The notes under the pieces: generated by a model | What the model was told of the DNA's origin: nothing | The model's input: only the letters and a program-made list of their open reading frames with translations | Database searches by the model: none | Origin: Prauserella aidingensis | Lineage (GTDB): Bacteria; Actinomycetota; Actinomycetes; Mycobacteriales; Pseudonocardiaceae | Reading direction: 5' to 3' | Length of the DNA: 64,000 nt | Assembly (NCBI RefSeq): GCF_024171865.1 | Contig: NZ_JAMTCN010000011.1 | Span: 1 to 64,000 of the forward strand | Position numbers and translations under genes: made by a program | Shown: positions 55,135 through 60,940 of the stretch, one piece after another | How positions within the stretch are numbered: the first letter of the stretch is position 1 | Layout: each line of letters begins with the position of its first letter

Positions 55135-56331
55135 ATGGCACCGAAGACCGGACTGTGGTTCATCGGCGCGCGCGGGTCGGTGGCCACCACCGCTACCGTC
55201 GGCGCGCTCGCGCTCACCGCGGGGCTCACGCGGCGCACCGGGTGCGTCACGGATCTCGCCGAGGTGGCGGCCGCCCGGCCGCCCGGAGTGGCCGACCTGG
55301 TGATCGGTGGCCACGACGTCGCCGGCGACTCACTGCCGAAACGCGCCGAGGCGTTGGCGGACGGCGGGGTGTTCGGCGTCGAGCTCGCGCGGGCGGTGCA
55401 CGACGGGCTGACCCGGGTGGACGCCCGCATCCGGCACGGCGTCGCGAGCAGCGGTCCGCACGACGGGCAGCACACCGGTTCGGAAGGTCCCGACGAGGGT
55501 ACTCAGCGGGACGCCGTCGAGCGGATCAGCCGCGACCTCGCCGGGTTCCGTGCGGCGCACGCGCTGGATCAGGTGATCGTCGTCGACGTCGCCACCACCG
55601 AGCCACCGGTCGACGTGACCCCGGAACTGTCCGATCTGGACGCATTGGAGCGGGCGTTGGCGGCGGGCGAGTCGCCGTTGCCGCTCAGCTCCCTCTACGC
55701 CTACGCGGCGTTCCGGGCGGGGTGCCCGGTCGTCGCGTTCACGCCGAGCCCCGGCCCCCGGCTTCCCGCGCTGGCCCAACTGGCCGAGCGGATGGGACTG
55801 CCGTGGGCGGGGTCGGACGGCAAGACCGGTGAGACGCTGGTCAAGTCGGCGCTCGCGCCGATGTTCGCGACCCGCGCCCTGCGGGTGCGCTCGTGGGCGT
55901 CGTACAACCTGCTCGGCGGCGGAGACGGCCGGGCACTGGCCGATCCGGTGACGGCGACGAGCAAGACGGCGACCAAGGGCAAGGGACTGACCGAGATGCT
56001 GGGCGAGCCGGTGGACGGCCCGCTGCACATCGACTACGTCGACGATCTCGGTGACTGGAAGACGGCATGGGACATGGTGTCGTTCGAAGGTTTCCTCGGC
56101 ACCAGGATGTCGATGCAGTTCACCTGGCAGGGCTGTGATTCCGCGCTCGCCGCGCCGTTGGTGCTCGACCTCGCCCGGCTGGTGGCACGCGCCCACCAGG
56201 TCGGGGAGTCCGGCCCACTCGGCGCGCTCGGCTTCTTCTTCAAGGACCCCGCAGGGGAGGGCGGGCACGACCTGGCAGGCCAGTGGCGCGCCCTCACCGA
56301 ATGGTGCGGGCGGCTCGGAGGTGACCGATGA
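55135..56331 (+). CDS. inositol-3-phosphate synthase-like cyclase
   Basis: Ino1 enzymes turn glucose 6-phosphate into inositol 3-phosphate with NAD. The 398-residue protein has the NAD loop GLWFIGARGSVATTATVGAL, AGSDGKTGETLVKSALAPMF, SWASYNLLGGGDGRAL and YVDDLGDWKTAWDMVSFEGF. CDSALAAPLVLDLARLV follows. The catalytic lysines of the family appear present. It overlaps eboC by four bases, so it belongs to the ebo-type operon. GGGAGGCCGGAGG precedes the ATG. It may make a carbocycle other than inositol. Confidence 0.88.
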   Translation: MAPKTGLWFIGARGSVATTATVGALALTAGLTRRTGCVTDLAEVAAARPPGVADLVIGGHDVAGDSLPKRAEALADGGVFGVELARAVHDGLTRVDARIRHGVASSGPHDGQHTGSEGPDEGTQRDAVERISRDLAGFRAAHALDQVIVVDVATTEPPVDVTPELSDLDALERALAAGESPLPLSSLYAYAAFRAGCPVVAFTPSPGPRLPALAQLAERMGLPWAGSDGKTGETLVKSALAPMFATRALRVRSWASYNLLGGGDGRALADPVTATSKTATKGKGLTEMLGEPVDGPLHIDYVDDLGDWKTAWDMVSFEGFLGTRMSMQFTWQGCDSALAAPLVLDLARLVARAHQVGESGPLGALGFFFKDPAGEGGHDLAGQWRALTEWCGRLGGDR

Positions 56332-57334
56332 AGGCGCGGGACGCGGTCGAGCTGGTACGGCTGCCTGCCGTACTGACCATTCCCGGCGACAGCCTCGCCG
56401 GGGGCGCGGCGGCGGGCTGGCCGTACGGCAGGCGGGGCTGGGCGATGCCGGCCGCCTCGGCGTGCTTCTACCTGGCGGGCATGGCGCTCAACGACTACGC
56501 CGACCGGGAGCTGGACGCCGTCGAACGTCCCGAGCGCCCGATCCCGTCCGGCAGGGTGCGGCCCGGCGAGGCGCTCGCGTTGGCGGCCGGGTTGACCGGC
56601 GCGGGCCTGGGCATCGCCACCGCTGTGGGCGGCCGCGCCGCCGTGCGGATCGCGGTGCCGGTCGCCGCCGCGGCGTGGACGTACGACCTCGCCGCGAAAG
56701 ACACCCCGGCCGGGCCCGCCGTCATGGCGGCCGCGCGGGGGTTGGACGTGCTGCTCGGAGCTGGGGGTCGACCGCGGAGGGCGGCACTGCCGGCCTCCGC
56801 GGTCGCCGGGCACACGCTCGGTGTGACCACCCTGAGCAGGGGTGAGGTGCACGGCGGATCGCGGCGCACCGGCCTGGCGGCACTCGCCACGACGGCGTCG
56901 GCGGCCACTGCGGCTGCGGTGGCCGCGTTACCTCGACGTCGCGGGCGGCGCGGCGACGACACGCTCCCCACCGACGACACGCGACGCGCCGACGACAGGC
57001 GCCGCCCGACGACAGGCGCCGCGCCGACGACAGGCGCCGCGCCGACGACAGGCGCCGCGCCGACGACAGGCGCCGCGCCGACGACAGGGGCCGCGCCGTC
57101 GCCGGCGCCGCGTTCGCCGCCACGTACGCGGGCACGGTCGGCCGCGCGCAGGCCGGCGCCGCGCGCACCCCGGATGCCGCCACGGTACGCACCGCGACCG
57201 GCGCAGGCGTGCGAGGCGTCATCGGATTGCACGCCGCTCTCGTGGCGGGCACCGGGGCGATCGGCCTCGCCGGGGGACTCCTGGCCGCGGGCCCGATCGC
57301 GCGGCTGGCCTCGAAGGTGGTGTCGCCGACATGA
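56328..57334 (+). pseudogene. eboC: EboC: UbiA-like prenyltransferase, frame broken inside a tandem repeat
   Basis: The first part (frame of 56328) has the UbiA prenyl-diphosphate motif NDYADRELDAVERPERPIPS. It continues with the EboC-like HTLGVTTLSRGEVHGGSR. Within the 18-bp repeat one G is missing between 57005 and 57006. After that point the continuing EboC sequence (AAFAATYAGTVGRAQAG ... VIGLHAALVAGTGAIGLAGG, last membrane helix) is in another frame and ends at a TGA (57332-57334) overlapping the next ATG by four bases. Restoring one base gives a 335-residue membrane protein. Unrepaired, the first frame runs on out of register. Either a sequencing error, a mutation or repeat slippage could be the cause. 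Confidence 0.82.
56988..57094 (+). repeat. six-copy 18-bp tandem repeat in eboC
   Basis: The unit is GCCGACGACAGGCGCCGC, coding Ala-Asp-Asp-Arg-Arg-Arg. Copies are at 56988-57005, 57006-57022 (17 bp, first G lost), 57023-57040, 57041-57058, 57059-57076 and 57077-57094 (one C to G change). It encodes a charged loop between membrane helices. Confidence 0.92.
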
Positions 57335-58191
57335 CCCTGCGCTTCGGCTACGGCACCAACGGATTCGCCGGACACCGCCTGGACGACGCCCTCGGCGTGC
57401 TCGCCGACCTCGGCTACGACGGTGTCGCGCTCACCCTCGACCATCCACATCTCGACCCGTTCGCTCCCGACCTCGCCGCCCGCACCGACGACGTGCGCCG
57501 CCGGCTCGCCGCGTACGGACTCGCCGTCGTGATCGAGACCGGCGCGCGCTACGTCATGGACCCGTGGCGCAAACACGAACCGACCCTGGTGTCCGACGTC
57601 GGCCGCGAGCGCCGTGTCGACTACCTGTGCCGCGCGATCCGCGTCGCAGCCGACCTCGGCGCGGAGGCGGTGTCGTTCTGGTCGGGGACGGTGCCCGAGG
57701 GCGCCGGTCCCCACCAGGCCTGGGAGCGGCTCACCAGCGGCGTCGAGCAGGTGCTGGCCGAGGCGCAGCGCCGCGACGTGCGGTGCGCGTTCGAACCGGA
57801 ACCGGGCATGTTCGTCGACACGCTCGCGGGCGTGGCGGAACTACGCCGCAGACTCGGCGATCCCGAACACCTCACGGTGACCGTCGACGTCGGACACTGC
57901 GTCTGCAACGAACCCGCCCCGCCGCAGGACCGCATCCGCGACGTCGGGTCGTCGCTGGGCAACGTGCAGATCGACGACATGCGCCCCGGAGTGCACGAGC
58001 ATCTCGAATTCGGCGACGGCGACGTCGACCTGCCCGCCACGCTCCGCGCGCTGTGCGACGTCGGCTATCAGGGCCTGGTCAGCGTGGAACTGCCCCGGCA
58101 TTCCCACGCCGCACCCGCCGTCGCCGCACGTTCGCTGGAGGCGTTGCGTACCGCGCAGGCAACGGCACTCGCGGCGGAGGTGACCGGGTGA
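57331..58191 (+). CDS. sugar phosphate isomerase/epimerase family protein in the ebo-type locus
   Basis: The 286-residue TIM-barrel protein has family metal sites in RCAFEPEPGMFVDTLAG (Glu), VTVDVGHCVCNEPAP (Asp, His), VQIDDMRPGVHEHLEFGDGD (Asp, His) and LVSVELPRHSH (Glu). Its ATG overlaps the eboC stop and its stop overlaps the eboA start. It is distinct from EboE further on. It probably isomerises or epimerises the same sugar-derived metabolite. Confidence 0.88.
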   Translation: MTLRFGYGTNGFAGHRLDDALGVLADLGYDGVALTLDHPHLDPFAPDLAARTDDVRRRLAAYGLAVVIETGARYVMDPWRKHEPTLVSDVGRERRVDYLCRAIRVAADLGAEAVSFWSGTVPEGAGPHQAWERLTSGVEQVLAEAQRRDVRCAFEPEPGMFVDTLAGVAELRRRLGDPEHLTVTVDVGHCVCNEPAPPQDRIRDVGSSLGNVQIDDMRPGVHEHLEFGDGDVDLPATLRALCDVGYQGLVSVELPRHSHAAPAVAARSLEALRTAQATALAAEVTG

Positions 58192-58859
58192 CATCACTGG
58201 ACGACCTGCTCGACAGCGAGGGCAGAGCCAGGCTGGCCGAGCTGACCGGCGAGGTGACGGCCGACCCGGCGCGGATCGGGGTGCTGCTGCCCGCCGTGGC
58301 GCGCGCCGTCGGCAGGGGACCGGCCGACCCGGACGACCCCGACGGCATGGTCACGCCCCGGATCGAGGACCAGGCCAGGGTCGCGTTGCTGCGCGCCGCC
58401 GCGCAGGGCTGGAACACCGATGCCCTCGTGGCGGAAATCGGCGCGCTGTACCGGCACGGCGACGCCGACGAGAAACGCGCCGTACTGCGAGCCCTGGACC
58501 ACCTCGACGTGGGAGACGCAGCGCTCGACCTGGTGGGGGACGCACTGCGCGGCAACGACACCCGGCTCATCGCGGCAGCCCTCGGCCCGTACGCGGCCGA
58601 GCACCTCGACCCGCACAGCTGGCGGCACGGCGTGCTGAAGTGCCTGTTCACCGGTGTTCCGCTGGCGGCGGTCGCCGGGATCGCGGAGCGCTCGGGGATC
58701 GCGGAACGGGGTGACGCCGAGTTGGCCCGGATGGTCGACGGCTTCGCCGCCGAGCGCCGCGCGGCGGGCCGCGACGTCCCCGCCGACGGGACGTGGCTGC
58801 TCGACCGGTTGACCTCGCAGCACCCGGACGTCGATGGGGGAACCGTCCCCGACCAGTAA
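58188..58859 (+). CDS. eboA: EboA domain-containing protein
   Basis: The GTG start lies in the preceding stop (GTGA). The 223-residue all-helical protein resembles the EboA family: RVALLRAAAQGWNTDALVAE, LYRHGDADEKRAVLRALDHL, DALRGNDTRLIAAALGPYAA and LDPHSWRHGVLKCLFTGVPL. The function is unknown. The family is defined by its place in ebo clusters. No signal or membrane helix is present. Confidence 0.82.
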   Translation: MTSLDDLLDSEGRARLAELTGEVTADPARIGVLLPAVARAVGRGPADPDDPDGMVTPRIEDQARVALLRAAAQGWNTDALVAEIGALYRHGDADEKRAVLRALDHLDVGDAALDLVGDALRGNDTRLIAAALGPYAAEHLDPHSWRHGVLKCLFTGVPLAAVAGIAERSGIAERGDAELARMVDGFAAERRAAGRDVPADGTWLLDRLTSQHPDVDGGTVPDQ

Positions 58860-59773: not shown

Positions 59774-60940
59774 ATGCGCTTCACCCACCCTGACGGCAGC
59801 CGCGTCCACCTGGCGTACTGCACCAACGTCCACCCCGCCGAGGACATCGACGGCCTGATGCGCCAGCTCCGCGTGTTCGGCGGCGGTATCCGCGCGGAAC
59901 TCGACGTCGATCGGCTCGGTGTCGGGCTGTGGCTGCCGGCGCCGCTGGCCGCGCACCTCGCCGACCACCCGGACCTGGACCGGCTCCGGGCCACCCTGGA
60001 CGACCACGGCCTCGAAGTCGTCACGCTGAACGCCTTTCCGTACCGGGGGTTCCACGACCCGGTGGTGAAGAAGGCGGTGTACAGCCCCGATTGGGTGGAG
60101 ACGCGGCGGCTGGAGTACACCCTGACGTGCGCCCGCCTGCTGGCGCGGCTGCTCCCGGACGACGCCGCGCGCGGCAGCATCTCGACCGTGCCGCTGGCGT
60201 GGCGGGCGCCGTGGTACTCCGACCGTCGCCTGCGGGCACACGAGCTGCTGGACCGGCTGGCGGAAGGGCTCACCAAGCAGACCGCCGAGACCGGCAGGCC
60301 GATCCGGGTCGGACTGGAACCCGAGCCCGGCTGCGTGGTGGAGACGGTCGACGACGCGATCGACCAGCTTTCCGGCATCGACACCGACCACATCGGACTG
60401 TGCCTGGACGCCTGCCACCTTGCGGTGGCGTTCGAGGACCCGACGGCGGCGGTGCGACGGCTCGTCGACGCGGGCCTGCCGATCGTGAAAACCCAGGCCT
60501 CGGCGGCGCTGCACGCCGCGGCGCCGGCTGACCGCGCGACCCGGCAGGCGCTGTCGTCGTACGCCGAGGACCGGTTCCTGCACCAGGTGCGCGAGCGCGG
60601 TCCGTCGCGCATCGCCGAACGCGACGACCTTCCCGAGGCCGTCGACGGTCGCCGCGCGTTGCGGGGCGACGGGCCGTGGCGCGTGCACTTCCACGTGCCG
60701 ATCCATCGACGTCCCGAACCACCGCTGGAGTCCACACGCGGCGAGCTCGGCGAGACGCTGGACGCTCTGCTCGGCGGTCCGGTCGCGCTGACCGACCACG
60801 TCGAGATGGAGACCTACACCTGGTCGGTGCTGCCGGAGCGGCAACGACCGGGCAGTGATGCCGAGCTGATCTCCGGCCTCACCGCGGAACTGCGCTGGGT
60901 CGCCGACCGGATGCGGCGAGCCGGATTGGAGACCACATGA
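59774..60940 (+). CDS. eboE: metabolite traffic protein EboE-like (TIM barrel)
   Basis: The 388-residue protein begins MRFTHPDGSRVHLAYCTNVH and has VVTLNAFPYRGFHDPVVKKA, RVGLEPEPGCVVETVDDAID, HIGLCLDACHLAVAFEDPTA and WRVHFHVPIHRRPEPP. These are EboE hallmarks. It is an isomerase-like barrel with a longer C-terminus. It overlaps eboF by four bases. Confidence 0.9.
   Translation: MRFTHPDGSRVHLAYCTNVHPAEDIDGLMRQLRVFGGGIRAELDVDRLGVGLWLPAPLAAHLADHPDLDRLRATLDDHGLEVVTLNAFPYRGFHDPVVKKAVYSPDWVETRRLEYTLTCARLLARLLPDDAARGSISTVPLAWRAPWYSDRRLRAHELLDRLAEGLTKQTAETGRPIRVGLEPEPGCVVETVDDAIDQLSGIDTDHIGLCLDACHLAVAFEDPTAAVRRLVDAGLPIVKTQASAALHAAAPADRATRQALSSYAEDRFLHQVRERGPSRIAERDDLPEAVDGRRALRGDGPWRVHFHVPIHRRPEPPLESTRGELGETLDALLGGPVALTDHVEMETYTWSVLPERQRPGSDAELISGLTAELRWVADRMRRAGLETT

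Follow-up and report, generated by a model that had tools for sequence, protein, structure and literature searches.

A repeat-lengthened loop and a one-base loss in a putative SCO3242-family prenyltransferase gene of Prauserella aidingensis

Prauserella aidingensis is a soil bacterium, and the window analysed here, a stretch of 64,000 nucleotides, comes from contig C12 of its 80-contig draft genome. Profile searches point to an ebo-like operon that includes a UbiA-type prenyltransferase gene of the SCO3242 family (Table 1). The frame opening at ATG 56328 matches positions 2–204 of the 287-position NCBIfam model NF045897, which represents this family, and positions 211–287 are matched in a second frame, that of 57098–57331. 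Since the two parts match consecutive stretches of the same model, they form one gene split at a tandem array. The original frame is clear, as the earlier note on this DNA had held. That note had named the product EboC-like. Its UbiA type and ebo-type neighbours agree with the name, but the scores do not: the first part alone passes the SCO3242-family cut-off of 260 bits and the last part aligns with the closing stretch of that model, whereas the two parts, scanned separately, reach 113.7 and 15.2 bits against a cut-off of 250 for EboC (NF035940). On profile scores, SCO3242-family prenyltransferase is the better name, with the difference from other family members that the frame is broken in the array.

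The neighbouring genes encode an EboA-domain protein, an EboE protein (424.9 bits, cut-off 250) and a TatD-like protein of the EboB kind (Pfam TatD_DNase, 50.6 bits). UbiA-297 of marine Flavobacteria, described in PMC9235831 as a relative within an ebo cluster, likewise lies beside EboA-domain, TatD-like and EboE genes, and the motif NDYADRELD in the window is of the DXXDXXXD kind which the same paper gives. No EboD (3-dehydroquinate-synthase-like) protein was found among the eight neighbouring proteins scanned with profiles. A sequence search of solved structures returned only four distant UbiA relatives, the best being chlorophyll a synthase (E = 1.3e-7). Compared with Prauserella halophila, the EboE protein of the window is without a stretch of about 11 residues at 60615–60620, with the frame kept, and the TIM barrel protein carries 19 residue differences, five of them within residues 127–132, which is more than its upstream neighbours show.

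Table 1. Coordinates of the split prenyltransferase gene, its repeat array and the genes that follow
Feature	Coordinates	Strand	Basis
Prenyltransferase gene (SCO3242 family, UbiA type), first part, with the Asp-rich motif and most helices	56328..56987	+	Read from ATG 56328 as far as the first exact unit; NF045897 294.1 bits and Pfam UbiA 67.7 bits for 56328–56999
Entire tandem array, period 18, 9.5 copies	56944..57112	+	TRF
Six near-identical units; the second (57006–57022) of 17 bp, the other five of 18 bp	56988..57094	+	Direct reading of the sequence
Prenyltransferase gene, last part, read in a different frame and ending with the stop TGA 57332–57334	57098..57334	+	NF045897 positions 211–287, 61.5 bits
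Gene that follows, for a xylose-isomerase-like TIM barrel protein; its start codon ATG overlaps the stop of the prenyltransferase gene	57331..58191	+	Pfam AP_endonuc_2 142.6 bits
EboA-domain protein; the lost frame ends here	58194..58859	+	NF035938 162.2 bits, cut-off 50; ORF 56328–58859

The six tandem units start at 56988, 57006, 57023, 57041, 57059 and 57077 and measure 18, 17, 18, 18, 18 and 18 bp. The count of six and the short second unit had been correctly noted before, with the qualification that the sixth unit differs from the others by one base. Two diverged 18-bp units (56952–56969 and 56970–56987) directly precede them, and TRF joins all of these into a single array with a score of 247, the highest among its 55 rows for the window. 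Because the second unit has only 17 bp, the frame from ATG 56328 is lost there, and the prenyltransferase reading frame is not continuous but split at the array. From its start to its stop the gene spans 1007 bases, one fewer than a multiple of three, in agreement with the 336 codons including stop that had been calculated for the restored gene; the overlap of its TGA with the ATG at 57331 was likewise correctly described. At the break, no base is repeated four or more times in a row. Within the array, exact self-matches reach at most 65 bases (57006 against 57024), a length that could trouble the short words of an assembler but not reads of 100–150 bases.

Past the break, the frame from ATG 56328 meets no stop until 58859; it runs open through the next gene and joins the frame of eboA, as previously noted, giving an open reading frame of 843 aa. 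That it encodes a real fusion protein, from the prenyltransferase through EboA, has in our view next to no probability. The frame is indeed continuous and takes in that of EboA, but its middle section reads the next gene in the wrong frame. Of 71 homologues of the next gene, 34 likewise have no stop in that frame; the P. halophila homologue is among them, those of P. rugosa and P. alba are not. On the window contig, 13 of the 69 genes encoding 250 aa or more have the corresponding frame open. Such openness is therefore not unusual, and the fused frame has no meaning: it arose by chance, as is common in GC-rich genes of this type.

Judged by the next gene, the nearest named relatives are P. halophila, P. 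rugosa and P. alba. All three have complete, single-frame copies of the prenyltransferase gene (299, 305 and 293 aa), and these vary in steps of six residues at the position of the array. Two overlapping surveys extended the comparison. Among the best 80 of 415 loci, retrieved through the next gene, an eboC-like gene is present in 79: it is complete and in a single frame in 76, split in one (that of CUA-673) and cut by contig ends in two; the locus stretch retrieved for the remaining one (L075) gave no eboC-like match. In 249 Pseudonocardiaceae genomes, evenly drawn from a larger group, the gene was found in 113 (119 match rows). Of these, 108 carry it complete and in a single frame, three have it cut (G071 at a contig end, G172 at a run of N, and G098, judging from its coordinates, also at a contig end) and two have it split, namely the window's genome and that of Saccharomonospora sp. 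CUA-673. Across the surveys, whether the gene is split cannot be judged for the five copies that a contig end or an N gap interrupts. At the threshold used, 136 of the 249 genomes had no match, which means that the family can do without the gene. A family-wide loss of the gene by way of this loop was considered and rejected, the only other split copy being that of CUA-673, in an assembly rich in splits.

The part of the protein that bears the array varies more in length than the remainder. In an alignment of 96 proteins this stretch measures 28–270 residues (median 38, sd 36.8), against 233–336 residues for the remainder of the same proteins (median 250, sd 11.7, with long N-termini among the extremes), and 14 of the 96 have loops of at least 55 residues. 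Several relatives hold tandem repeats there with periods divisible by three: an 18-bp array of 2.5 copies in P. rugosa, a 21-bp array of 4.2 copies in Jiangella ureilytica and an 18-bp array of 12 copies in Actinomadura kijaniata. In contrast to the window, these relatives keep the frame, and the unit sequences of the other genera are unrelated to the window's. TRF arrays with a score of at least 60 cover 859 of 11862 loop bases and 475 of 57399 other bases, an excess that comes mostly from the longest loops; counted by gene it is slight (9 of 76 genes with an array in the loop, 8 of 76 with one elsewhere). Three loops, those of two Streptomyces and A. kijaniata (L037, L041 and L076), reach 232, 270 and 205 residues and are rich in A, G, P and R.

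The structure predicted for the P. halophila protein (pLDDT 92.2, pTM 0.90) puts the loop at residues 200–214 or so, between helices 179–199 and 215–244. Helix counting would place it on the membrane face opposite loop 171–178, which we take to be one of the two active-site loops of UbiA enzymes. The window's loop is about six units longer than that of P. halophila, and the sequence comparison shows that the 18-bp repeat was recently expanded in a loop that is often longer in relatives. Since the loop has been lengthened repeatedly in this prenyltransferase family, at times by unrelated tandem repeats, insertions are tolerated at this position. With the frame lost, helices 215–244, 248–271 and 276–295 would be lost as well.

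Could the array act as a switch? The earlier note had offered mutation, error and phase switching as explanations, and the first two both stand. We consider it very improbable that this is a phase-variable (contingency) gene, in which changes in array length toggle the prenyltransferase and the off-length unit makes the gain or loss of a unit frame-changing. An array within a coding frame that includes one such unit, in a loop whose length varies among relatives and which in several of them also carries arrays, speaks for this proposal. However, 18 is a multiple of three, five of the six units have this length, and the break shows no homopolymer of at least four bases, in contrast to the repeats expected of a contingency gene; the single 17-bp unit is the exception to frame neutrality. 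Moreover, every complete copy in the relatives keeps the frame, the relatives vary by whole units, and among the copies examined only those of the window and of CUA-673, whose assembly is riddled with errors, are split. The narrower idea that the single off-length unit, within an otherwise frame-neutral array, forms a rare on/off switch of the membrane prenyltransferase and, by way of the stop–start overlap, of the ebo-like genes further down seems to us marginally less probable still. The claim that slippage by whole units keeps the frame holds for the 18-bp units; slippage of the off-length unit would change it, which limits the claim to the former and is the only point still in favour of a switch. 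In the limited collection of literature covered, we found no report of phase variation by slipped-strand, tandem-repeat frameshifting in Actinobacteria.

Both halves of the gene look conserved in sequence. The first part differs from P. halophila by 2 nonsynonymous and 16 synonymous changes and from P. rugosa by 9 and 26, respectively; for the last part the counts are 1 and 1 against P. halophila and 1 and 13 against P. rugosa. We rejected an old pseudogene on the grounds that neither part shows decay, although for the last part the counts are low (two differences to P. halophila). Conservation of both parts would also be expected if programmed ribosomal frameshifting joined them and the gene were functional as given, and stable RNA folds are predicted in the GC-rich array. 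We nevertheless regard this as highly improbable, as no in-frame X XXY YYZ heptamer, the mark of a −1 site, occurs between 56328 and 57100, and the relatives use one frame without a shift. In the literature covered, the sole match for Prauserella together with frameshifting concerns chlD (PMC9227772).

What remains is an accident, either in the draft consensus or in the genome. Proteins of P. halophila, P. rugosa and P. alba served as queries against the assembly in a test for split genes; a comparison by DNA gaps only was swamped by non-coding stretches and was replaced by this protein-based one. A first protein criterion missed the prenyltransferase split with the P. rugosa query, the pieces overlapping in the array, and a second criterion found it. 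On the window contig, 2 of 87 genes are split against P. halophila (the prenyltransferase and one confined to the first 28 residues), 2 of 12 against P. rugosa (the prenyltransferase and one N-terminal case) and none of 52 against P. alba, where the prenyltransferase was not among the automatically picked genes and the result is uninformative for it. The two additional splits lie within the first 28–42 residues of the query gene, and we take them to be probable cases of wrongly chosen starts. The other in-gene arrays of the contig gave no such split in this test. With so few other splits, the contig is good, and the break lies in its highest-scoring array. In the CUA-673 assembly, by contrast, the second criterion finds 8 of 14 genes split with P. 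halophila as query and 8 of 15 with P. rugosa (the first criterion gave 8 of 14 and 10 of 16), and its prenyltransferase split therefore does not represent an independent loss; gene calls in this assembly (L024; NZ_MKKE01000011.1, G006:C11) need care.

Against an error, the window contig is otherwise clean and the odd unit adjoins unique sequence on its left, a position at which ordinary reads ought to resolve its length. Against a mutation, the break lies in the hardest-to-assemble 17% of the gene, and there is no decay. Because relaxed selection has left no sign, a real break would be recent. In our judgement, which is not a calculation, a draft consensus error is slightly ahead of a very recent mutation.

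We thus propose, with considerable confidence, that a SCO3242-family gene had its loop lengthened in frame by duplication of an 18-bp unit and shows an accidental loss of one base, by error or by recent mutation, and that regulation plays no part. The loop between two helices tolerates in-frame lengthening, and the comparison with P. halophila, which has two units, shows that tandem duplication has extended it by about six more. One unit is a base short in this sequence, and the frame is lost; the protein would lack its last three helices and would probably be inactive. The missing base itself may be a consensus error in a GC-rich array or a mutation too recent for decay to have followed.

The feature is real in the sequence and ordinary in kind, a loop lengthened by a repeat together with the loss of one base. 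Its first implication is one of caution: the array needs resequencing before anyone describes the strain as naturally mutated in the ebo-like pathway. A modest further use is that the loop marks a place in this prenyltransferase family at which insertions are tolerated.
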